Part shown: positions 21,988 through 33,085 of the stretch, piece after piece | How positions within the stretch are numbered: the first letter of the stretch is position 1 | How the letters are laid out: each line of letters opens with the position of its first letter | Source of the DNA: Acidobacteriota bacterium | Lineage (GTDB): Bacteria > Acidobacteriota > Thermoanaerobaculia > Multivoradales > JAHEKO01 | DNA: 35,803 nt | Assembly (NCBI GenBank): GCA_029862975.1 | Contig: JAOTWP010000031.1 | Coordinates: 1 to 35,803, forward strand | Direction of reading: 5' to 3' | Position numbers and translations under genes: made by a program | Notes under the pieces: generated by a model | Databases searched by the model: none | What the model was told of the DNA's origin: nothing | Seen by the model: only the letters and a program-made list of their open reading frames with translations

Positions 21988-23505
21988 ATGCTGCCCAAGA
22001 ACGCCAGCCGCGAAGCGATCCTCGAGATCCTCGAAGACGAGGGCGGCCTGCGGGCCGGCGTCGCGGCACGGGTGGAGCGCCGGACCGGCGTGCCCGCGGC
22101 CGACGTCTACGGGGTGGCGACCTTCTACCACCTGCTCAACGACCCCGACGCCGGGGTCCGGGTCTGCCAGGGCCTCTCCTGCAAGATCGCCGGCTGCGAC
22201 GCGGAGATGGCACGGCTCGAGGCGGCGGGCACGAAGGCGGTCTACACCGCCTGTCTGGGGCGCTGCGACGTGGCCCCGGCGCTGTGGGACCCGCAAGTCG
22301 AGGCGGCGACGCCGGCGCCTCACTTCTCGCCGAGCGATCCGGACTTCGCGATCGATCTGCTGCGCCCCGACTGCCGCGAGTACCAGGCGTTCGCGGCGGC
22401 GCGCGAGCGCGGCGCCGAGTGGGTGCTCGCCGAGCTCGAGGCCTCGGGGCTGACCGGCCGCGGCGGCGCCGGCTTCCCGGCCCACATCAAGTGGCGCGGC
22501 GTGCGCGGCCAGCCGGTCGCGGAGCGCTACGTCGTGCTCAACGCCGACGAGGGCGAGCCCGGGACCTTCAAGGACCGCGAGGTGATCCTGCGCCGGCCGC
22601 ACCTGGTGGTCGAAGGCCTGGCGATCGCCGCCTACGCGCTGGCGGCCGGGGACGTCTACTGCTACGTCCGCGGCGAGTTCGGACACGTCAAGGCGGCGCT
22701 CGTCGCCGCGGTCGACGAGGCCCGGGCCGTGGGCGTCCTCGACCCGGCCGTCCGCTGGCACTTCGTCGACGGCCATGGGGCCTACATCTGCGGCGAGGAG
22801 ACGGCGCTGCTCGAGGCGCTCGAGGGCAAGCGCGGCATGCCGCGGATGAAGCCGCCCTTCCCGGTCGAGGTGGGCTTCCGCGGCAAGCCCACCCTGATCC
22901 AGAACGTCGAGACGATCGCCTGCCTGCCGGCGATCCTCGGTCGCGGCGGCGAGTGGTTCAGAAGCTCCGGCCGCACCCAACCGGGCTCCAAGCTCTACTG
23001 CCTCTCCGGCCACGTGGCGCGGCCCGGCGTCTACGAGGCGCCGATGGGCGTCTCGATGCGCGAGCTCCTCGCGCTCGCCGGCGGCGTCGTGGGCGAGCTC
23101 AAGGCCTTCTCGCCGGGCGGCGCCTCGAGCGGCTTCCTGCCCGCCGGCAAGATCGACGTGGCGATGGACTTCCAGGCGCTGGCCGCGGAGGGCAGCATGC
23201 TGGGCTCGGCCGGCGTCGTCGTGCTCAACGACACCGCCGACATGGTCGACGCGGCGCTCACCCAGGCCGTGTTCTTCGAGGACGAGTCGTGCGGCCAGTG
23301 CGCCCCCTGCCGCATCGGCACCCAGATCCTGCGCCAGGCGCTCGAGCGCTACCGCGACGAGGGCCGCGACCCGGAGACCCTCTCCTACGTCGCGGACGTA
23401 GCCTGGGGAATGCGCGAGGCTTCGATCTGCGGCCTCGGCCAGGCCGCCTCACTGCCGCTCGAGAGCGCCATGAAGTACTTCCCGGAAGAGTTCGGGCTCC
23501 CGTGA
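21988..23505 (+). CDS. nuoF: NuoE-NuoF fusion: NAD-linked diaphorase subunit, probably of formate dehydrogenase
   Basis: A 505-residue fusion. Residues 1 to about 125 are a NuoE-like thioredoxin-fold [2Fe-2S] domain with C60/C65 (VCQGLSC) and C89/C93 (CLGRC); its N-terminal helical part is complete enough to include the VYGVATFYHLL motif. Residues about 126-505 are NuoF: GRGGAGFPAHIKW for NADH, NADEGEPGTFKDRE for FMN, DGHGAYICGEETALLEALEG, and a [4Fe-4S] site formed by C435/C438/C441 (SCGQCAPCRIGT) and C481 (SICGLGQ). It passes electrons between NAD(H) and iron-sulfur clusters. No other complex I genes are nearby, whereas a NuoG-type formate dehydrogenase subunit lies at 29566. It is therefore best read as the diaphorase of an NAD-dependent formate dehydrogenase (FdsB-like); a hydrogenase diaphorase is the alternative. 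The ATG at 21988 has no clear ribosome site. Confidence 0.9.
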   Translation: MLPKNASREAILEILEDEGGLRAGVAARVERRTGVPAADVYGVATFYHLLNDPDAGVRVCQGLSCKIAGCDAEMARLEAAGTKAVYTACLGRCDVAPALWDPQVEAATPAPHFSPSDPDFAIDLLRPDCREYQAFAAARERGAEWVLAELEASGLTGRGGAGFPAHIKWRGVRGQPVAERYVVLNADEGEPGTFKDREVILRRPHLVVEGLAIAAYALAAGDVYCYVRGEFGHVKAALVAAVDEARAVGVLDPAVRWHFVDGHGAYICGEETALLEALEGKRGMPRMKPPFPVEVGFRGKPTLIQNVETIACLPAILGRGGEWFRSSGRTQPGSKLYCLSGHVARPGVYEAPMGVSMRELLALAGGVVGELKAFSPGGASSGFLPAGKIDVAMDFQALAAEGSMLGSAGVVVLNDTADMVDAALTQAVFFEDESCGQCAPCRIGTQILRQALERYRDEGRDPETLSYVADVAWGMREASICGLGQAASLPLESAMKYFPEEFGLP

Positions 23506-24180: not shown

Positions 24181-25107
24181 CTAGCCGGACTGCATCGCGG
24201 CGAGCGCCCTCAGCCGCTCGAAGCGCGCGGCGCCGACGCGCCTGGCCTCCTGGGGGTCGACCTCGCCCGGGGCGAAGCGCTTCTGCAACGTGAAGTACTC
24301 GGCCGGGTCGGTGCCGTCGGGCTCGGCGTTGAGGCGGTAGCGCACCCCGTCCCAGACCTCGTAGAGCGGGAAGAGGCCGCTCGCCACGGCCAGCCGGACG
24401 AGCTGGATCGAGTCGCCGGGCTCGGCCTTCCAGCCGGTCGGGCAGGGCGAGTGGAGGAGCAGGAACCTCGTGCCCCGGATCTCGAGCGCGGTGCGGATCT
24501 TGCGCTCGAAGTCCTCCGGATGGGCGATCGAGAGCGTCGCCGCGTAGGGCACGCCGTGGGCGGCCATGATCGCCATGATGTCCTTCTTCGCTTCGGCCTT
24601 GCCGCCCGGCGTCGTCGTCGTGAGCGCCCCGGCCGGGGTGGCCGAGGAGCGCTGGCCGCCGGTGTTGCCGTAGATCTCGTTGTCGTAGCAGACGTAGATC
24701 AGATCCTCGTCGCGCTCGGCGGCGGCCGACAGCGTGGCGATGCCGATGTCGTAGGTGCCGCCGTCGCCGGCCCAGCAGATCACCTCGTGCCGCTCGCCGT
24801 TGAGCGAGCGCACCCGCGCCATGCCGCTGGCGTAGGCCGGGGCCGAGGCGAACGTCGTGGCGACGACCGGCACGCCGTAGCTCGTCGTCGGGTAGCCGCC
24901 GGCCGTGACGATGCCGCAGCAGGCGGGGATGGCGAGCTGGCACTCGCGGCGCTCGGCCGCCAGGACGCGGCCGAGCAGGGTCAGGCCGACGCTCATGCCG
25001 CAGCCGCCGCAGTTGGTGTTGCCCGGCCGCAGCAGGCAGTCCTCGCTGCACGGCAGCCCGACCTGCTCGGCGGACGAGGCGTGGACGCTCGCGGTGTCGG
25101 TGCTCAT
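24181..25107 (-). CDS. porB: Pyruvate (2-oxoacid):ferredoxin oxidoreductase, beta (TPP) subunit
   Basis: A 308-residue subunit binding thiamine diphosphate and one [4Fe-4S] cluster. Cluster ligands are in NTNCGGCGM (near residue 34) and PACCGIVTAGG. The TPP motif is CWAGDGGTYDIGIATLS through CYDNEIYGNTGGQRSSATP, the form typical of pyruvate oxidoreductases. The FLLLHSPCPTGWK segment near residue 217 also matches PorB. With PorA and the PorG-containing fusion it decarboxylates a 2-oxoacid, most likely pyruvate, to the acyl-CoA and CO2 in an oxygen-sensitive reaction. The ATG at 25107 overlaps the porA stop (ATGA), so translation is coupled. It is the third gene of the operon. Confidence 0.94.
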   Translation of the reverse strand: MSTDTASVHASSAEQVGLPCSEDCLLRPGNTNCGGCGMSVGLTLLGRVLAAERRECQLAIPACCGIVTAGGYPTTSYGVPVVATTFASAPAYASGMARVRSLNGERHEVICWAGDGGTYDIGIATLSAAAERDEDLIYVCYDNEIYGNTGGQRSSATPAGALTTTTPGGKAEAKKDIMAIMAAHGVPYAATLSIAHPEDFERKIRTALEIRGTRFLLLHSPCPTGWKAEPGDSIQLVRLAVASGLFPLYEVWDGVRYRLNAEPDGTDPAEYFTLQKRFAPGEVDPQEARRVGAARFERLRALAAMQSG

Positions 25108-26297
25108 GCGCTGGCCTCCTCGGCGACCTCGAGGCCCGGCCACAGCGGCCGCTCCGCGACCCGCCGCCGCGTCAGATCGTCGAGGACCTGCGCGATCGTC
25201 TCGGGAGTGACGTCGCCGCCGCAGAGCCCGGTCAGGTAGCCCTGGACGAGCGGGCCGCGCGGCACCCCCTGGAACGCCGCGCGGGTGTCCTGCCAGAAGA
25301 CGCCGCCGACGCCGGCCGCGTAGTTGCGGTCGAGCACGCCGACCCGCCGGGCGCCCGCACAGGCCGCGCGCAGGGCGCGCTCGGGGAACGGCCGGAACAT
25401 CTTCACCCGGACGATCCCGACCTTCTCGCCCGCTTCGCGGCGCCGGCGCACGACCTCGCGGGCCGTCGTCGCCACGGTCGACGAGGCGACGAGGATCGTC
25501 GCCGCGTCCTCCGTCCCCCAGGTCTCGAGGGCATCGCCGACCGGGCGCCCGAAGACGTCCTCGAACGCCGCCCGGCACTCGGCGAGCACCTCCGGCACCC
25601 GCGCCATGGCGCGCTCGACGTCGGCCCGCTGGTAGGCCGCCTCGGCCGGCCACACGAGGCCGCCCAGCGTCACGGGATGGTCGCCGCGCAGGCGGTGGGG
25701 CAGGTCGAGCGGCGGCAGGTAGCGGTCGACCAGCTCCTGCTCCGGCAGCTCGGTCGCCGTCTGCGTGTGCGAGAGGATGAAGGCGTCCATGCACACCATC
25801 ACCGGCAGCAGGATCCGCGGGTCCTCGGCCAGCCGGAAGGCCAGGAGCGTCGTGTCGAGCACCTCCTGGTTGTCCTGGCAGTAGAGCTGGATCCACGGGA
25901 AGTCGCGCAGGAAGAGGGTGTCGCCCTGGTCGGCCCAGATGTTCCACGGCGGCCCCAGGGTCCGGTTGACCGCCACCATCACGATCGGCAGCCGGTAGAA
26001 GCCCGCCACCATGATGTTCTCGGTCATGTAGGCCAGCCCGTTCGAGGAGCTGGCCGTGAACGCCCGGGCGCCGGCGAGCGAGGCCCCGATCGACACCCCC
26101 ATGGCGCTGTGCTCGCTCTCGACCGGCACCACCTCTCCCTTGCTGAAGGGGAAGCTCGCCACGTACTCGACGATCTCGGTCTGCGGCGTGATCGGGTAGA
26201 TCCCGCACGCCGCCCCGCGGGCGAAGCGGTTCGCCTCCCCGGCCGCGCTCAAGGCGTAGCCCGCGGCGTGATTCCCGGTCACCAGCTCTGTGCCCAT
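25104..26297 (-). CDS. porA: Pyruvate (2-oxoacid):ferredoxin oxidoreductase, alpha subunit
   Basis: A 397-residue subunit. It opens MGTELVTGNHAAGYALSAAG and contains IYPITPQTEIVEYVAS (pyrimidine-binding domain), PVESEHSAMGVSIGASLAGA with the conserved Glu, and FTASSSNGLAYMTENI. Domain II (from about residue 260) begins ATILVASSTVATTAREVV and includes IVRVKMFRPFPERAL and LDRNYAAGVGGVFWQDT. The order of domains and the length match the separate alpha subunit of four-subunit enzymes. It forms the active site with PorB. The gene starts 10 nt after the fusion gene and ends overlapping porB, so all three are one transcription unit. Confidence 0.94.
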   Translation of the reverse strand: MGTELVTGNHAAGYALSAAGEANRFARGAACGIYPITPQTEIVEYVASFPFSKGEVVPVESEHSAMGVSIGASLAGARAFTASSSNGLAYMTENIMVAGFYRLPIVMVAVNRTLGPPWNIWADQGDTLFLRDFPWIQLYCQDNQEVLDTTLLAFRLAEDPRILLPVMVCMDAFILSHTQTATELPEQELVDRYLPPLDLPHRLRGDHPVTLGGLVWPAEAAYQRADVERAMARVPEVLAECRAAFEDVFGRPVGDALETWGTEDAATILVASSTVATTAREVVRRRREAGEKVGIVRVKMFRPFPERALRAACAGARRVGVLDRNYAAGVGGVFWQDTRAAFQGVPRGPLVQGYLTGLCGGDVTPETIAQVLDDLTRRRVAERPLWPGLEVAEEASA

Positions 26298-26307
26298 CGT
26301 CGGCCTC

Positions 26308-28548
26308 TCACATGTGGCTCATGAAGATGACGTTGCGCGGGCACTCGCTGGCGCACACCGCGCAACCCTTGCAGAACGAGTAGTCGAAGACGAACTCCTC
26401 GCCGACCCGCTTGAGCACCCCCTCGGGGCAGAAGGTGACGCAGGCGTCGCACTCGTTGCAGACCCCGCACGACAGGCAGCGGCGAGCCTCGCTCGCGTCG
26501 TCGAGCCCGCGGTGGACCTCGGCGAAGTTCCAGGTCCGCTCCCAGGGATCGAGGACCCCTCCCTCGCTGCGGCGCGCGCGCTCGAACAGATGCAGCTTCA
26601 TCGCCTCCGGGCGCACCACCTCGTCCCGCCAGACGTCGACGTGGCGCCGCGCGGCGGCGTGCTCGCCGCCCCCCAGCAGCTCGCCGGAGAGCGTCTCGTG
26701 GATGTGCAGGGCGCTGCGCCGGCCGCTGCCGATCGCCGACGCCACCGTGCCGTCGTGCGTCGCCAGGTCGCCGACCGCGAAGACCGGCGTCTCGATCATC
26801 CCGAGCAGGCGCTCGCCTTCCCGGATCTCGGTCCCCTCCGGGAAGACGCTCAGGTCGGGCGACTGGCCGAGGGCGAGAATCACCCGGTCGCAGGGCAGCT
26901 CGAAGTCCGAGCCGGCGATCTCGAGCGGCCGCCGGCGGCCGGAGGCGTCGGGCTCGCCGAGCTCCATCCAGCGGCAGGTCAGGACGCACCGCGCGCCGGT
27001 CCCGGCGCTCTCCCGGATGGCCACCGGCAGGGTGAGCGTCTCGAGCTCGACCCCCTCTTCGAGCGCCTGCTCGATCTCCTCGCGAATGGCCGGCATCTCG
27101 GCCGGGGAGCGCCGGTAGACGATGATCGCCCGCTCGGCCCCGACCCTGAGAGCGCTGCGGGCGGCGTCGACCGCCGTGTTGCCGCCGCCGACGACGACGA
27201 CCGTCTCGTTCTCGAGGCCGGCGGCGCCGCGGTGGACGCGCTCCAGGAAGTCGATCCCCTGGAGCACGGTCTCGCTGCCGGCGGTCACCATCTCCAGGCC
27301 GCGCAGCTCCTGCAGGCCGGTGGCGACGAGCACCGCGTCGTGGGCTCGCGCCAGATCGAGCAGGCGGGCGCGATCGACGGGCGCCCCGGTCACGAGCTCG
27401 ACGCCGAGATCCGTGATTCGCCCGATCTCGCGATCGACGACCGCGTCGGGCAGGCGGTAGCCGGGGATGCCGGTGCGCAGCAGCCCGCCGGTCTCGAGCC
27501 CGCCCTCGAGGACCGTCACCCGGTAGCCGAAGAGGGCCAGGTGATACGCCGCCGTGAGGCCGGCGGGGCCGGAGCCCACGATCGCCACCCGCTCGCCGCG
27601 CTCGGCGCCGGGTACCAGCGCCACCGTGCCGTGGTCGGCCGCGAAGCGCTCGAGCTCGCGGACGTTGACGGCGCCGTCGAGGTCGATCCGGTTACAGCTG
27701 TCCATGCAGGGCGCCGGGCAGACCCGGCCGCAGACGCCGGGAAACGGCGAGACCCGCAGCAGGATGGCGAGCGCCTCGTCGGTCTGGTCGCGGGCCAGGG
27801 CCTGGAGGAACCCCTGGACGTCGTTGCCGGCCGGACAGACGTGGTTGCAGGGCGGCACCATCTGCTGGCGCGCCGGCTGCTGGCTGGCCCACTGGCCGGT
27901 GCGGATCGTCGGCCACCCACCGCCGGCGCCGGTGATGAAGCTCGGGCTGCGCGCTGGGGGCGCCGCGGCCGCCGCCGGCCCGGCCGCGCCCTCAGCCGCC
28001 ACCGAGTCGAGCAGTCGCGTGGCTTCGTAGGCCTGGTCGGCGGCTGCGAGGTTGCCGCCGGCAAAGCCCAGGTGCTCGACGGCGGCCCGCACGTGCCCGA
28101 GCTCGAACCCCAGGACCCGGCCGACGGCCCCGGCCAGCGCCGTGTTGACGATCGGCACCGCCCTCGTGCCCAGGCCGTTGGCCAGCGCGATGGCGGTCGC
28201 GTCGACGGTCGCCAGCCGATGGGCGGGGAAGCTCTCGCGCAGGCTGTCCGGCGGCTGCGGCGTGTTGAGGACGATCCAGCCGCCGGGCTTCAAGCCGCCG
28301 GCGACCGCCGGCCCGATCAGCGTCGAATCGAGCACGACGACGTGATCGGGCTCGTAGATCAGGTTGCGGTTCTCGATCGGCTCCGCGTCGTAGCGGCAGA
28401 AGGCCTGCACCGGGGCGCCCGAGCGCTCGGCGGCGTAGAGCCCGAAGGCCTGCACGGAGTCGCCCTGCAGAAACCGCGTCGTGGCGATCAGCTTGGCGAG
28501 GGTGACTCCCCCCTGGCCGCCGCGGCCGTGCACCCTGATCTCGATCAT
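26308..28548 (-). CDS. porG: PorG - GltD-like NAD(P)/FAD oxidoreductase - PorD ferredoxin fusion
   Basis: A 746-residue three-part protein. Residues 1 to about 185 are PorG/gamma: EIRVHGRGGQGGVTLAKLI and FGLYAAERSGAPVQAFCRYD. After a Pro/Ala linker (about 186-230) comes a GltD/NfnB-type module. It has cysteines in CNHVCPAGNDVQGFL and CGRVCPAPCMDSCNR, the FAD site GSGPAGLTAAYHLALFGY, the NAD(P) site VVVGGGNTAVDAARSAL followed by YRRSPAEMPA, and the second FAD segment VFAVGDLATHDGT. The last about 70 residues are a two-[4Fe-4S] ferredoxin (CGVCNECDACVTFCPEG and CKGCAVCASECPRN). The start at 28548 has GGGAG 7 nt upstream and gives MIEIRVHGRGGQGG at the normal PorG N-terminus; a frame extended to 28656 adds non-conserved sequence. 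It probably lets 2-oxoacid oxidation exchange electrons directly with NADP(H). Confidence 0.92.
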   Translation of the reverse strand: MIEIRVHGRGGQGGVTLAKLIATTRFLQGDSVQAFGLYAAERSGAPVQAFCRYDAEPIENRNLIYEPDHVVVLDSTLIGPAVAGGLKPGGWIVLNTPQPPDSLRESFPAHRLATVDATAIALANGLGTRAVPIVNTALAGAVGRVLGFELGHVRAAVEHLGFAGGNLAAADQAYEATRLLDSVAAEGAAGPAAAAAPPARSPSFITGAGGGWPTIRTGQWASQQPARQQMVPPCNHVCPAGNDVQGFLQALARDQTDEALAILLRVSPFPGVCGRVCPAPCMDSCNRIDLDGAVNVRELERFAADHGTVALVPGAERGERVAIVGSGPAGLTAAYHLALFGYRVTVLEGGLETGGLLRTGIPGYRLPDAVVDREIGRITDLGVELVTGAPVDRARLLDLARAHDAVLVATGLQELRGLEMVTAGSETVLQGIDFLERVHRGAAGLENETVVVVGGGNTAVDAARSALRVGAERAIIVYRRSPAEMPAIREEIEQALEEGVELETLTLPVAIRESAGTGARCVLTCRWMELGEPDASGRRRPLEIAGSDFELPCDRVILALGQSPDLSVFPEGTEIREGERLLGMIETPVFAVGDLATHDGTVASAIGSGRRSALHIHETLSGELLGGGEHAAARRHVDVWRDEVVRPEAMKLHLFERARRSEGGVLDPWERTWNFAEVHRGLDDASEARRCLSCGVCNECDACVTFCPEGVLKRVGEEFVFDYSFCKGCAVCASECPRNVIFMSHM

Positions 28549-28717
28549 GCAGGTCTCCCGGTCTCGCCGCCGGCCGGAGCCCTGGACTCCGAGCACACCT
28601 TTGCCGGCGAGGTACGTCGACCCGATGATGTCGCGCGCCGGCCCGCGGCTGAACACCCGCCGAGGCGGCCCGCCGCCCCACCCCGTCAGTTGGTCTCGGC
28701 GCTTTGCCCGGCCGGCC

Positions 28718-29107
28718 CTACGCCAGGCGCAGCGGCGTGTGGCGGGCGATGCGTGCGAAGTCCGCGTCGGGGCTGAGCAGGGAGGCTCCGAGGTCGAGGC
28801 AGGTCTGGGCGATCAGGCAGTCGACGGCTCCGCGCACGGTGACGCCCTTCCCGCGGAGCAAGCGGTACAGGCTGGCCGCCTGCACATGAGCGTCGAGCGT
28901 CGGGTGGATCACCGGCAGCGAGCAAAGCAGCCGGCGGGCGCGGCGGAAGCCCGTGTCGGTCCGGAAGCCCTGTAGGACCTCGGTCACGATGATCGGCAGG
29001 ACGGCGAGGTCCTCCTCCCCCTCGAGGGCGCTGTCCAACCGCTCCACCTCTGGCGTTGGCACGCCGTTGAAGAAGTCCGCCCAGGCGTTCGAGTCGACGA
29101 CGATCAT
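28718..29107 (-). CDS. vapC: VapC-family PIN-domain toxin
   Basis: A 129-residue PIN-domain ribonuclease. The acidic metal-binding residues are D5 (MIVVDSNAW), E43 (VTEVLQGF), D96 (AVDCLIAQTC) and D114/D116 (SPDADF). VapC toxins cut tRNA or rRNA when freed from their antitoxin. The start at 29107 overlaps the stop of vapB (ATGA), giving the usual antitoxin-first coupled order; longer in-frame starts would run through vapB and are rejected. The pair sits between the por operon and fdhA. Its stop is 169 nt before the por operon start. Confidence 0.92.
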   Translation of the reverse strand: MIVVDSNAWADFFNGVPTPEVERLDSALEGEEDLAVLPIIVTEVLQGFRTDTGFRRARRLLCSLPVIHPTLDAHVQAASLYRLLRGKGVTVRGAVDCLIAQTCLDLGASLLSPDADFARIARHTPLRLA

Positions 29108-29316
29108 CGGCGCGCGGCGCGGGAAGACCGCCAGGCATCGACGTCGCCCTGCCAGGGAAGCTCGCCGCGAAGGCGGCGCAGCGCCCGATAGAGGGTCCCC
29201 TTCTCCACCAGTCTCCGCAGGGCGATGTCCACGACCTCGCGTTTCGTCCGCGAGCCCGTCAGGCGCATGGCCTCCTCGACGAGGGCGTCGTCGAGCTCGA
29301 TGTTGGTGCGTCCCAT
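29104..29316 (-). CDS. vapB: VapB-family antitoxin
   Basis: A 70-residue protein. The N-terminal MGRTNIELDDALVEEAMRLT plus TKREVVDIALRRLVE forms the ribbon-helix-helix DNA-binding domain of the DUF2191/VapB type. The C-terminal tail LRGELPWQGDVDAWRSSR is the toxin-wrapping region, matching the Trp/Gly/Asp pattern usual in this family. AAGGAGA lies 6 nt before the ATG. It neutralises VapC and should repress its own operon by binding the palindrome 19 nt upstream. Confidence 0.92.
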   Translation of the reverse strand: MGRTNIELDDALVEEAMRLTGSRTKREVVDIALRRLVEKGTLYRALRRLRGELPWQGDVDAWRSSRAARR

Positions 29317-29334
29317 CCCGGTCTCCTTGAAGCC

Positions 29335-29365
29335 GATACACCAATATAGTGATTCTTGGTGTATC
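29335..29365. promoter_or_regulatory. Perfect inverted repeat, likely VapB operator/promoter
   Basis: Arms GATACACCAA (29335-29344) and TTGGTGTATC (29356-29365) are perfect complements around an 11-bp AT-rich spacer. They lie 19-49 nt upstream of the vapB start codon. Minus-strand TATATT in the spacer and TTGATA at the distal edge are promoter-like but not at standard spacing. Position and symmetry fit an autoregulatory RHH operator. Confidence 0.75.
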
Positions 29366-29395
29366 AAGCAAGCCGTAGCCGCTCCTGTCCAAAGA

Positions 29396-29452
29396 CGCGA
29401 TCGGCCGGGGCGATCTCGCAGCCGCCGGAGTGCCTCCGGTCTGCCGATCGCG
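29396..29452. other. Nested inverted repeat upstream of fdhA (possible structured leader)
   Basis: Outer arms CGCGATCGGC (29396-29405) and GCCGATCGCG (29443-29452) are perfect 10-bp complements. They enclose an inner hairpin CCGGAG/CTCCGG (29425-29430 and 29434-29439, loop TGC). It lies in the 249-nt gap between divergent vapB and fdhA, 114 nt before the fdhA ATG. It could be a leader RNA structure, a large protein-binding palindrome or a terminator. I could not match it to a known riboswitch. Confidence 0.5.
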
Positions 29453-29565
29453 CCGCTGGGGTCGCAGAGCGCCGAGGCTGGCTGGCGTGACGAGCGGTCC
29501 CGCGCAGCGTCGTCGCCGGGCGCCATGGCATACTTGCGCCCAGGTTTTCGAGGAGCCCGGGACGG

Positions 29566-32328
29566 ATGGCCGAGAGCAGGTACGTGATCATCGACGGCAA
29601 CGAGCTCGAGTACCGGGCCGGGGAGACGATCCTCGGGGCGGCGCGGCGGGCCGAGATCGAGATCCCGGTGCTGTGCCACGACGACCGGCTCACCCCGGCC
29701 GGGGCGTGCCGGATCTGCCTCGTCGAGGTGGACGGAGCGCGGCTCATGCAGCCGGCCTGCCACACGAGAACGGCGGCCGGCATGGTCGTGCGGACCGCGA
29801 CCCCGAAGGTCGAGCGCAACCGGCGGTTCATCACCTCGCTGCATCTCGCCGACACCATCGCCGACCGCGCCGCGGCCGAGGACAACAACCCCTCGAAGCT
29901 CCACGACCTGGCGCGGCGTTACGGCACGCTGGGCGAGTGGGCGCACGTCGCCTCGCCGCGCGCCGGGCGGCCGCACGACGACAATCCCTTCGTCGGCTTC
30001 CGGCCCGACCGCTGCATCGCCTGCTCCCTGTGCACCCGCTACTGCGACGAGATCGAGGCCGTCTCCGCCATCACGCTCGCCTTCCGCGGCGCCCACACGA
30101 CGATCTCGACGGCCGACCGGCTGGCGCTCACCGACACCACCTGCGAGCTCTGCGGCGGCTGCATCGACGTCTGCCCGACGGGGGCGATGACGGAGAAGCC
30201 GGCGCTCGCCTGGGGCAAACCGGAGCGCGAGCTCGAGAAGGTCCGCACGACCTGCAACTTCTGCGGCGTCGGCTGCCAGCTCGACCTGAACGTCGACCGC
30301 GCCGCCAACCGGGTCGTCAAGGCCACGAGCCCGCCGCCGGGGACGACGGTCAACGACGGCAACCTGTGCGTCAAGGGCCGCTTTGCCAACGACTTCATCC
30401 AGCATCCCGACCGCCTCGACACGCCGTTGGTGCGGGGCGACGACGGGCAGCTTCATCCCGCAACCTGGGACGAGGCGCTCGACCGCGTGGTCGCCGGGCT
30501 CCAGGGGGTGGCGGCGCGCCATGGCGACGACGCCCTGTGCTTCATCAGCTCGAGCCGCTGCACCGTCGAAGAGAACTACCTCATGCAGAAGATGGCCCGC
30601 GCAGCCTTCAGGACGCACAACGTCCATCAATGCGCGGCCACGTGACACGCCCCCACGGTCGCCGGTCTGGTGACCACCTACGGGGCCGGGGCGATGACGA
30701 ACTCGATCCCCGAGATTCGTGACGCCGACTTCCTCTTCGTCATCGGCTCCAACACCTCCGAGGCCCATCCCATCATCGCGATGGAGATGAAGCAGGCCGT
30801 GCGCCGCGGCGCGCGGCTCGCCGTGGCCGACCCGCGCGCCATCTGGATGACGCGGATCGCCGACTGGCACCTGCAGCTCGCCGGCGGTACCGACGTCTGG
30901 CTCTTGAACGCGATGGCCCACGTCATCGTCAGCGAGGGGCTGGAGGACAAGGAGTTCATCGCCGCCAACACCGAGAACTTCGAGTCCGTCAGGGAGACGG
31001 TGCTGCGCTACCCCCCGGAGGAGGCCGAGAAGGTCACCGGGGTGCCGGCGGAGACGATCCGCGAGGTCGCCCGCGCCTACGCCACCACCGAGAAGGCGGG
31101 CATCTACTACACGCTGGGCATCACCGAGCACACGACCGGTACCGACAACGTCTACGCCCTCTCGAACCTGGTGCTCCTGACCGGCCACCTCGGCAAGCGC
31201 TCGGCCGGAATGAACCCGCTGCGCGGCCAGAACAACGTCCAGGGGGCCAACGACGCGGGCGCGACGCCGGTCTTCCTGCCCGGCTACCAGCGGGTCGCGG
31301 ACCCCGAGGTGTGCGCCAAGTTCTCGGCGGCCTGGGGGGTCGAGCAGCGACCCGAGCCGGGCCTCAACCTGAACGAGATGATGAAGGCGATGTCCAAGGG
31401 CGAGCTGCGCGGCATGTACCTCATGGGCGAGGACATCGTCATCTCCGAGCCCAACGTCTCTCGGGTCGAGGAGGCGATGAACGAGATGGAGTTCGTCGTC
31501 GTCCAGGACATCTTCTTCAACGAGTCCTGCCGCTACGCCGACGTCGTGCTGCCGGCGGCCTGCTTCGCCGAGAAGGACGGCGTCTTCGCCAACTCCGACC
31601 GCCGGGTGCAGCGGGTGCGCAAGGCCGTCGAGCCGCCGGGCGAGGCGCGCGCGGACTGGGCCATCCTCGCCGAGGTGATGCGCCGCGCCGGCTACCCGCA
31701 GCCGGCGGACCACGGGCCGGCCGAGATCTACGCCGAGATGGCGTCGCTGGCGCCCAAGTTCGCCGGCATCTCGCACGCGCGGATCGAGCGCGAGGGCGGG
31801 CTCCAGTGGCCGGTCACCTCGCCCACGGCGCCCAGCACCGAGTACCTGCACAAGGACGGCATCCTGCGCGGCAAGGGCCTGTTCCAGGCCGTGGAGTACC
31901 GGCCGCCCTTCGAGTGCGCCGACGCCGAGTACCCGCTCGTCCTCTCGACGGGCCGCACCCTCTACCACTACAACGCCGGCACCCAGACCCGGCGCTCCGG
32001 CGGCCTGACGGCCAAGCAGCCCGAGGGCTTCGTCGAGATCCACCCCAAGACCGCCCGCCACCTGGGAGTCGCGGACGGCCAGCTGGTCGACGTCGTCAGC
32101 CGCCGCGGCCGGGTGCGATGCCGCGCCATGGTCAGCCGCCAGGTGCGGCGCAACTCGATCTGGATGCCCTTCCATTTCCCGGAGGCCCAGACCAACCTGC
32201 TGACCACCGACGCCGGCGACGCCGTCACCGGCACCGGCGAGTACAAGGTCTGCGCCGCGCGCATCGAGCCGGTCGCCGAGAGCGAGGCGGAGCGCCTCTT
32301 CCCGGGCTCCTACGCCGCCGCCGGCTGA
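29566..32328 (+). CDS. fdhA: Selenocysteine-containing formate dehydrogenase, NuoG-type catalytic subunit
   Basis: A 920-residue molybdenum or tungsten bis-MGD enzyme for formate/CO2 interconversion, read through TGA 30643-30645 as Sec360. The N-terminal [2Fe-2S] domain is PVLCHDDRLTPAGACRICL. Two [4Fe-4S] clusters follow (CIACSLCTRYC and CELCGGCIDVCPTGA, about residues 147-210), then the molybdopterin domain with CNFCGVGC and its cluster (about 228-268). The site HNVHQCAAT-U-HAPTVAGL aligns with the family's DHCAR-(C/U)-HSPTVAGL. The His after the TGA and all following family motifs (NPLRGQNNVQGANDAG, VLPAACFAEKDGVFANSDRR, MPFHFPEAQTNLLTTDAGD) are intact, so the TGA is recoding, not decay. 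GAGGAG lies 10 nt before the ATG. Electrons likely go to the NuoEF fusion at 21988. selABD genes must lie elsewhere in the genome. Confidence 0.93.
30646..30685 (+). ncRNA. Bacterial SECIS element within fdhA
   Basis: Immediately after the UGA, GGUCGCC (30657-30663) pairs with GGUGACC (30669-30675; seven pairs, one G-U) and closes the five-base loop GGUCU (30664-30668). CCCC (30651-30654) can pair with GGGG (30682-30685) as a lower stem. The loop begins 18 nt after the UGA. Loop sequence and distance match the E. coli fdhF SECIS as I recall it, which recruits SelB with Sec-tRNA. Confidence 0.85.
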
Positions 32329-32369
32329 TTGGCCCCCGTCCTCCGGGCCCGAGCGGAGTCGCTGCCGCG

Positions 32370-32394
32370 CGTCACCCGGCGGCCGGGGATGACG
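32370..32394. terminator. Stem-loop downstream of fdhA, possible terminator
   Basis: CGTCACCCGG (32370-32379), loop CGG, then CCGGGGATGACG (32383-32394): ten pairs with a two-base bulge, 41 nt after the fdhA stop and between convergent genes. There is no T-tract, so Rho-independent termination is uncertain. Confidence 0.4.
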
Positions 32395-32422
32395 GCGGAT
32401 CGGGAAGGCGCGCCGCGGCTCT

Positions 32423-33085
32423 TCACCCGCCGCGCCGCGCGACGAAGATCGCATGCCGGGCGCCGCGCTCGCCGCGGGCGCGCACGGCGTGGCTCGTGGC
32501 GTCGAAGCCGCACTTGCGCAGCAACCTGACGAACCGCGGGTCCGAGCTCGCCGACCAGAACGCGACGGTCCCCCCGGGCGCCAGGGCGGCCTGGATCTGG
32601 AGCAGGCCCGACCGGTCGTAGAGCCGGCGGTTCGACTCCAGGCACCAGGCGACGGGGCCGTTGTCGACGTCGAGCAGGATCGCGTCCCACGGCGCCTCGC
32701 GGACGATGAGGCTCCACACGTCGCCCTCGACGATTCGCGTGCGGCGGTCGGTGAGCGCGCCGGCCTGGAGGTCGGGCAGGTAGGCGCGGTTCCAGTCGAT
32801 GACGCGCGCGAAAACCTCGGCCACGACGACCTCGGCGCCGGGCGGCAGGACGTCGAGCGCCGCCCGCAGGGTGAAGCCGAGCCCCAGCCCGCCGATGAGC
32901 ACCCGCGGCCGGCCCCGGAGACCGCCGCAGGCCAGCCGCGCGAGCTCCCGCTCCGAGCCCGGCGCCCGGCTCGACATCAGCTCGTCGCCGTCGAGATGGA
33001 CGAAGTAGTCGCCGTCGCGGCGGTGGAGCGTCAGCTCCTGCCCGGCCGGCGTCGTGAACCGGTCGAGCGTCTCGAAGACCTTCAC
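32423..33085 (-). CDS. Spermidine synthase-like methyltransferase-fold protein
   Basis: About 220 residues with the Rossmann-type fold of spermidine synthases. Motifs are [20 protein letters not shown] (motif I), [19 protein letters not shown] with the acidic residue after strand 2, [12 protein letters not shown], and [12 protein letters not shown]. The C-terminal strand is [14 protein letters not shown]. The N-terminal part ([20 protein letters not shown]) is a short beta region as in SpeE but smaller, and the protein is shorter than SpeE (about 280). No polyamine genes are near. It may be a generic methyl- or aminopropyltransferase of unknown substrate. GTG at 33085 ([10 protein letters not shown]) is taken as start, though its ribosome site is weak. 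The gene is divergent from typA. Confidence 0.75.

Follow-up and report, generated by a model that had tools for sequence, protein, structure and literature searches.

We have analyzed a 35,803-nt stretch of DNA, referred to here as the window, which corresponds to contig C265 in a draft assembly of 309 contigs that totals 4.49 Mb and is 93% complete. Positions 29566-32328 of the window almost certainly form a single gene for the alpha subunit of a formate dehydrogenase (FDH), in which the codon for residue 360 is a TGA that, with the aid of a downstream hairpin, would be decoded as the catalytic selenocysteine (Sec). This TGA is the only one inside the frame, which is otherwise open over 29566-30642 and 30646-32328; the product has 920 residues and the terminal stop, at 32326-32328, is also TGA. 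An earlier note on this DNA had described one continuous FDH gene with the motif QCAAT-U-HAPTVAGL around the TGA, and both its coordinates and the motif proved to be exact. It had also expected automated callers to split the gene in two. That is what a mechanical ORF list does, giving 29566-30645 (359 aa) and 30670-32328 (552 aa, with a GTG start); the expectation is thus borne out for a list of this mechanical kind. A summary of the features is presented in Table 1.

Table 1. Features of the FDH gene and its likely partner in the window.
Feature	Position	Strand	Basis
NuoE-NuoF fusion, 505 aa, likely diaphorase partner	21988..23505	+	PF01257, PF01512, PF10531, PF10589
FDH alpha subunit, NuoG-type	29566..32328	+	920-codon frame through one TGA; TIGR01591 796 bits
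Fer2_4 [2Fe-2S] domain, NuoG-like N-terminus, codons 9-79	29590..29802	+	PF13510
Place of His-Cys3 cluster A4, codons 97-110	29854..29895	+	ligands replaced by T97, R101, A104, S110 (6tg9_A alignment)
In-frame TGA, residue 360, predicted Sec codon	30643..30645	+	aligned with family catalytic Cys/Sec
Predicted bacterial SECIS hairpin, GGTCGCC - loop GGTCT (30664-30668) - GGTGACC	30657..30675	+	covariation; Rfam SECIS_3 match 30640-30698
Codon of Arg553 in NPLRGQNN, likely active-site arginine	31222..31224	+	invariant in alignment; role inferred from family

The joined protein passes the NCBI model for FDH alpha subunits, TIGR01591, matching it over residues 228-900 with 796 bits (cut-off 666.25 bits), while the halves alone score 133.5 and 636.5 bits and both fall below the cut-off. 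Pfam identifies Fer2_4, Fer4_Nqo3, Fe4S4, molybdopterin and dinucleotide-binding domains; the NuoG-like N-terminal [2Fe-2S] and [4Fe-4S] domains are represented by PF13510, PF22117 and PF04879, and the molybdopterin domain PF00384 occupies residues 283-706 and thus spans the TGA. By sequence the best solved relatives are 9wxb_B, an FDH alpha subunit (708.8 bits), and 6tg9_A, the FdsA subunit of Rhodobacter capsulatus (691.8 bits). Both align over about 900 residues, both are single chains and both have Cys at position 360. Residues 360 (with Sec shown as C), 361 and 553 are invariant among 14 aligned sequences; His361 and Arg553 are presumably the active-site pair, by the roles that they have in E. 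coli FdhF. An AlphaFold model with C placed at residue 360 has a mean pLDDT of 76.1 and a pTM of 0.74, and its four best PDB matches are all FDHs, from Methylorubrum extorquens (two), Rhodobacter aestuarii and R. capsulatus; these match with an rmsd of about 8 A and confidence is low at residues 152-196 and 553-562, so that no active-site geometry is claimed from the model. The two ORFs of the mechanical list, the second with a possible start of its own at the GTG at 30670, might be taken as two separate proteins, each folded and used alone. Such a division would however fall inside PF00384 and at the expected metal ligand, and the two best solved relatives, which have Cys at the site, are single full-length chains; we consider separate proteins highly improbable.

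The composition of the gene is uniform on either side of the TGA, with a third-position G+C of 0.91-1.00 over nine 100-codon blocks. Long frames on the opposite strand of this 73% G+C DNA were also considered as coding and were rejected. One of them, an antisense frame of 1116 aa (29104-32454, minus strand), has a composition that does not look coding: G+C at its three codon positions is 0.93/0.51/0.68, versus 0.66-0.67/0.47-0.52/0.95-0.98 in the FDH halves.

Homologues of the gene were located at 141 places in a scan of named genomes, and the best 80 of these 141 were examined at the codon for residue 360. The site is occupied by TGA in 23 of them, by TGC in 41 and by TGT in 16 (57 Cys codons in all). 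Together with the Cys found in the best solved relatives, this confirms the column identity that the earlier note had proposed as a check. All 18 homologues at 60-89% identity among these best 80 have TGA. Fourteen of the 18 are labelled Acidobacteria, Acidobacteriota or Thermoanaerobaculia (78-89% identity), and the other four come from Deltaproteobacteria, an uncultured bacterium, Verrucomicrobia and Neomarinimicrobiota. Five more distant homologues (L039, L040, L042, L053 and L086) also have TGA, and the 57 with a Cys codon are L038 and loci with Bacteroidota-type names. A second set consisted of 40 genomes of the same order, including the present one, and contains partly the same organisms as the first. 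FDH matches at E <= 1e-100 were found in 27 of these genomes, at 32 places, of which 30 were examined as loci. Among the 29 loci long enough to include the site, TGA is present in 25 and TGC in four (33-37% identity); locus L151 ends short of it, and for the remaining two places the search listing gives no internal stop. A tblastn search of plasmids with the C-terminal half of the FDH matched 1470 records, each at less than 60% identity, and these were left out of the comparison. A more distant FDH-like gene that also contains a TGA occurs in seven genomes of the same order (L152-L158, 44-47% identity); its motif is DSCNRT-U-HAPS and its stem CGTCG(C/T)C-GGTCT-GGCG(A/G)CG.

Only one base distinguishes TGA from TGC or TGT, and the draft assembly is split into 309 contigs, so a Cys codon might have been misread as TGA during sequencing, or have mutated to a stop recently, and the gene would then be an artefact or a pseudogene. 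Against this, all 18 close homologues, which come from assemblies named separately, share the TGA; elsewhere the frame is unbroken and its composition is that of normal coding DNA; and a covarying hairpin accompanies the TGA genes and not the Cys genes, as described below. An error or mutation of this kind is extremely improbable.

The predicted SECIS hairpin has a stem of 7 bp that starts 11 bases 3' of the TGA, and its GGTCT loop lies 21 bases from the first base of the TGA. Bacterial SECIS elements follow general rules, and the hairpin was considered in their light. GGTCT occurs 82 times on the two strands of the window, and only the copy at the FDH TGA is flanked by the seven pairs. Conservation of the hairpin was assessed in a TGA set comprising the window and the 23 TGA homologues (24 sequences, 23 distinct) and in a Cys set of 57 sequences (56 distinct). 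The loop GGTCT is invariant in all 24 sequences of the TGA set, 98.1% of the stem cells are paired, and in four of the seven pairs both partners have changed; the highest value among the slid controls is 65.8% paired. None of 500 shuffles attained the covariation score or the paired percentage, and six attained the number of double-changed pairs. In the same columns of the Cys set 38.8% of cells are paired, and slid versions do equally well or better, up to 57.4%. Three of 500 shuffles of the Cys set reached its paired percentage and 11 its covariation score; the Cys set thus also beats most shuffles, which makes shuffling a weak control among related sequences. The most telling evidence for the hairpin comes from distant TGA genes with wholly different stems, for example L053 and L039. 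Among the 40 genomes of the order all seven pairs are formed at 25 of 25 TGA loci, and the four TGC loci form between one and four of the seven. Rfam SECIS_3 matches positions 30640-30698 with 38.1 bits (E 3.1e-7) in a permissive search of 401 bases, which is below the curated 63 bits, and a search of the whole window with Rfam at gathering scores gave no match.

The earlier note had proposed a search for selA, selB, selC and selD elsewhere in the genome, and each of them was found in the assembly. The tRNA-Sec gene (selC), with anticodon TCA, is on contig C188 (71.3 bits); C290 has another match above the cut-off of the tRNA-Sec model, which ARAGORN identifies as a tRNA-Ser. SelA is encoded on C81 (527.9 bits), the main copy of SelB on C47 (357.3 bits) and SelD on C110 (345.1 bits). 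The selD gene has one in-frame TGA of its own, in the context CAG-U-ASK; about 30 bases past that TGA a hairpin containing GGTC begins. Since the four sel genes lie on separate contigs of a 309-contig assembly, their origin from a single organism rests on binning. Across the order, selB is over the cut-off in 36 of the 40 genomes. These genes also bear on whether TGA is a sense codon throughout the organism, for example for Trp or Gly, which a TGA inside the frame of a conserved gene might also signal. The tRNA-Sec with its TCA anticodon and the accompanying selA, selB and selD speak against such a change of code, as do the use of TGA as terminal stop of both the FDH and NuoE-NuoF genes, its single occurrence within 920 FDH codons, and the presence of Cys, rather than Trp or Gly, in homologues that lack it. 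We assign next to no probability to a reassigned TGA, and Sec remains the preferred reading.

Additional copies of two of these genes were encountered. A second SelD is part of a fusion on C14 (locus L017, 1393-3624, minus strand; 245.4 bits) and has the Cys form CGGCAAK; it makes up the end of a 743-aa frame, the first part of which resembles, by eye, a flavoprotein of the NADH-dehydrogenase type. A second full-length selB is found on C171, a contig of 3,542 bp (loci L011 and L131; 280.1 bits, 659 aa, 39% identical to the main copy), where it directly follows a second serS whose product is 38% identical to the main SerRS. The best non-self match of the C171 SelB among 199 genomes of the phylum, its own included, is 50% identical, and the main SelB is 48-61% identical to 29 SelB loci from the order. 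The idea that two SelB proteins serve two classes of SECIS was dropped in view of the 50% best match in the phylum for the C171 protein versus 48-61% for the main one. C171 is thus probably either a foreign contig or a horizontal gain. A foreign contig seems the likelier reading, tempered by the finding of two selB genes over the cut-off in a further genome of the order (G035).

What the sequence itself shows is an open frame with a conserved TGA, a hairpin that covaries, the set of sel genes and the domains of the protein; these point to an incorporation of Sec that would proceed by the usual bacterial steps. SerRS and SelA would charge tRNA-Sec, with its anticodon TCA, using selenophosphate from SelD; SelB would bring the Sec-tRNA to the ribosome and bind the GGTCT-loop hairpin, so that TGA is decoded as Sec and not as a stop. 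These steps are also set out in a 2006 survey (PMC1794560). In the finished enzyme Sec360, beside His361 and Arg553, would ligate Mo or W in a bis-MGD cofactor, and the enzyme would oxidise formate (or reduce CO2). Electrons would then pass by way of the N-terminal Fe-S clusters to a diaphorase of the NuoE-NuoF type and on to NAD. Incorporation of Sec, the identity of the metal, the diaphorase as partner and which way the reaction runs are all inferred.

The likely diaphorase gene lies 6 kb upstream of the FDH gene in the window, with oppositely oriented genes between them. A NuoE-NuoF gene precedes the FDH gene by at most 0.7 kb in 13 of 24 relatives' loci (in L038 with only 32% identity); in one it is 5.4 kb upstream and in one just downstream. 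Nine of the 24 have none nearby, and among these the upstream sequence is cut short only in L034 and L039; L021, the nearest relative, has no NuoE-NuoF in the 8 kb upstream of its FDH gene. Coupling to NAD is thus suggested by the domains and by a gene order seen in roughly half of the searched relatives. Between the NuoE-NuoF and FDH genes is a set resembling a 2-oxoacid:ferredoxin oxidoreductase (26308-28656 and 25104-26297, both on the minus strand); in the first of these a single 782-aa frame joins a POR domain, a GltD-like part of the pyridine-nucleotide-disulphide-oxidoreductase kind and a ferredoxin domain. Beside the FDH gene, 28718-29392 on the minus strand encodes a PIN domain (PF01850), perhaps of a VapC-like protein.

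Several features of the gene are familiar from known FDHs. E. coli fdhF also has an in-frame TGA (codon 140), with a GGTCT likewise 21 bases on, although its stem forms none of the seven pairs in the register of the window, the apical stem being shorter and differently paired. The catalytic part of E. coli FDH-H (1aa6_A) matches residues 224-909 of the window protein; unlike the window FDH, this match omits the NuoG-like N-terminal Fe-S domains. The NAD-dependent FDH of R. capsulatus aligns over residues 6-901 of the window protein (6tg9, FdsA, 691.8 bits); it has Cys in place of Sec, and an A4 cluster at the dimer interface whose four ligands are absent from the window FDH. Precedent for Sec in a pyridine-nucleotide-linked FDH comes from Moorella thermoacetica, whose enzyme is given in a table of PMC10779653 as W/SeCys, cytoplasmic and NADP-dependent; the likeness drawn here is one of these listed properties.

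The A4 cluster of R. capsulatus is bound by His117, Cys121, Cys124 and Cys130 at the dimer interface, outside the direct electron path, and its role was left open by the authors of that structure (PMC7171172), the only paper to come up when the literature was searched on this feature. The window FDH lacks the His-Cys3 set of the R. capsulatus type. Of the 77 homologues that cover the place (three of the 80 do not), 16 have the complete motif H-x3-C-x2-C-x5-C and 61 lack it; the 17 close homologues, of 18, with coverage there all lack it. So do 43 of the 57 genes of the Cys type, and L040 and L086, both distant TGA genes, have it; loss of the motif is therefore not tied to Sec. An acidobacterial clade of Sec-containing, diaphorase-coupled FDHs may have shed A4, which would leave the halves electrically separate and make these enzymes a natural A4 knock-out; we put this forward tentatively, as slightly less probable than its opposite. 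The missing ligands offer a simple comparison for the function of A4 in NAD-dependent FDHs.

FDH belongs to the earliest enzymes in which selenium and a Sec codon were demonstrated (PMC10779653). In the 2006 survey FdhA heads the portion of the selenoprotein table consulted, with 103 proteins, and Acidobacteria are listed among phyla 'some of which have selenoproteins' (PMC1794560). Three known selenoprotein genes are given for the acidobacterium Occallatibacter riparius in a 2025 report (PMC12013277), so the use of Sec in Acidobacteriota is already on record. The nearest named relatives of the window FDH are from Thermoanaerobaculia/Acidobacteriota. Ca. Sulfomarinibacter also belongs to Thermoanaerobaculia. 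MAGs of Ca. Sulfomarinibacter and of Ca. Polarisedimenticola are reported to encode FDHs, in a paper whose main text does not contain 'seleno-' (PMC8528874). Within a partial library, papers on Sec together with FDH in Acidobacteriota, and papers on FDH in Thermoanaerobaculia, had no title or abstract opening on this gene. Both Sec-type FDHs and acidobacterial use of Sec being known, the window FDH is an ordinary case of a predicted Sec-type FDH. The analysis gives the right model of a gene in formate metabolism whose product a plain ORF list cuts at the active site, and it displays a conserved predicted Sec codon with a SECIS-like hairpin in Acidobacteriota of the Thermoanaerobaculia type.
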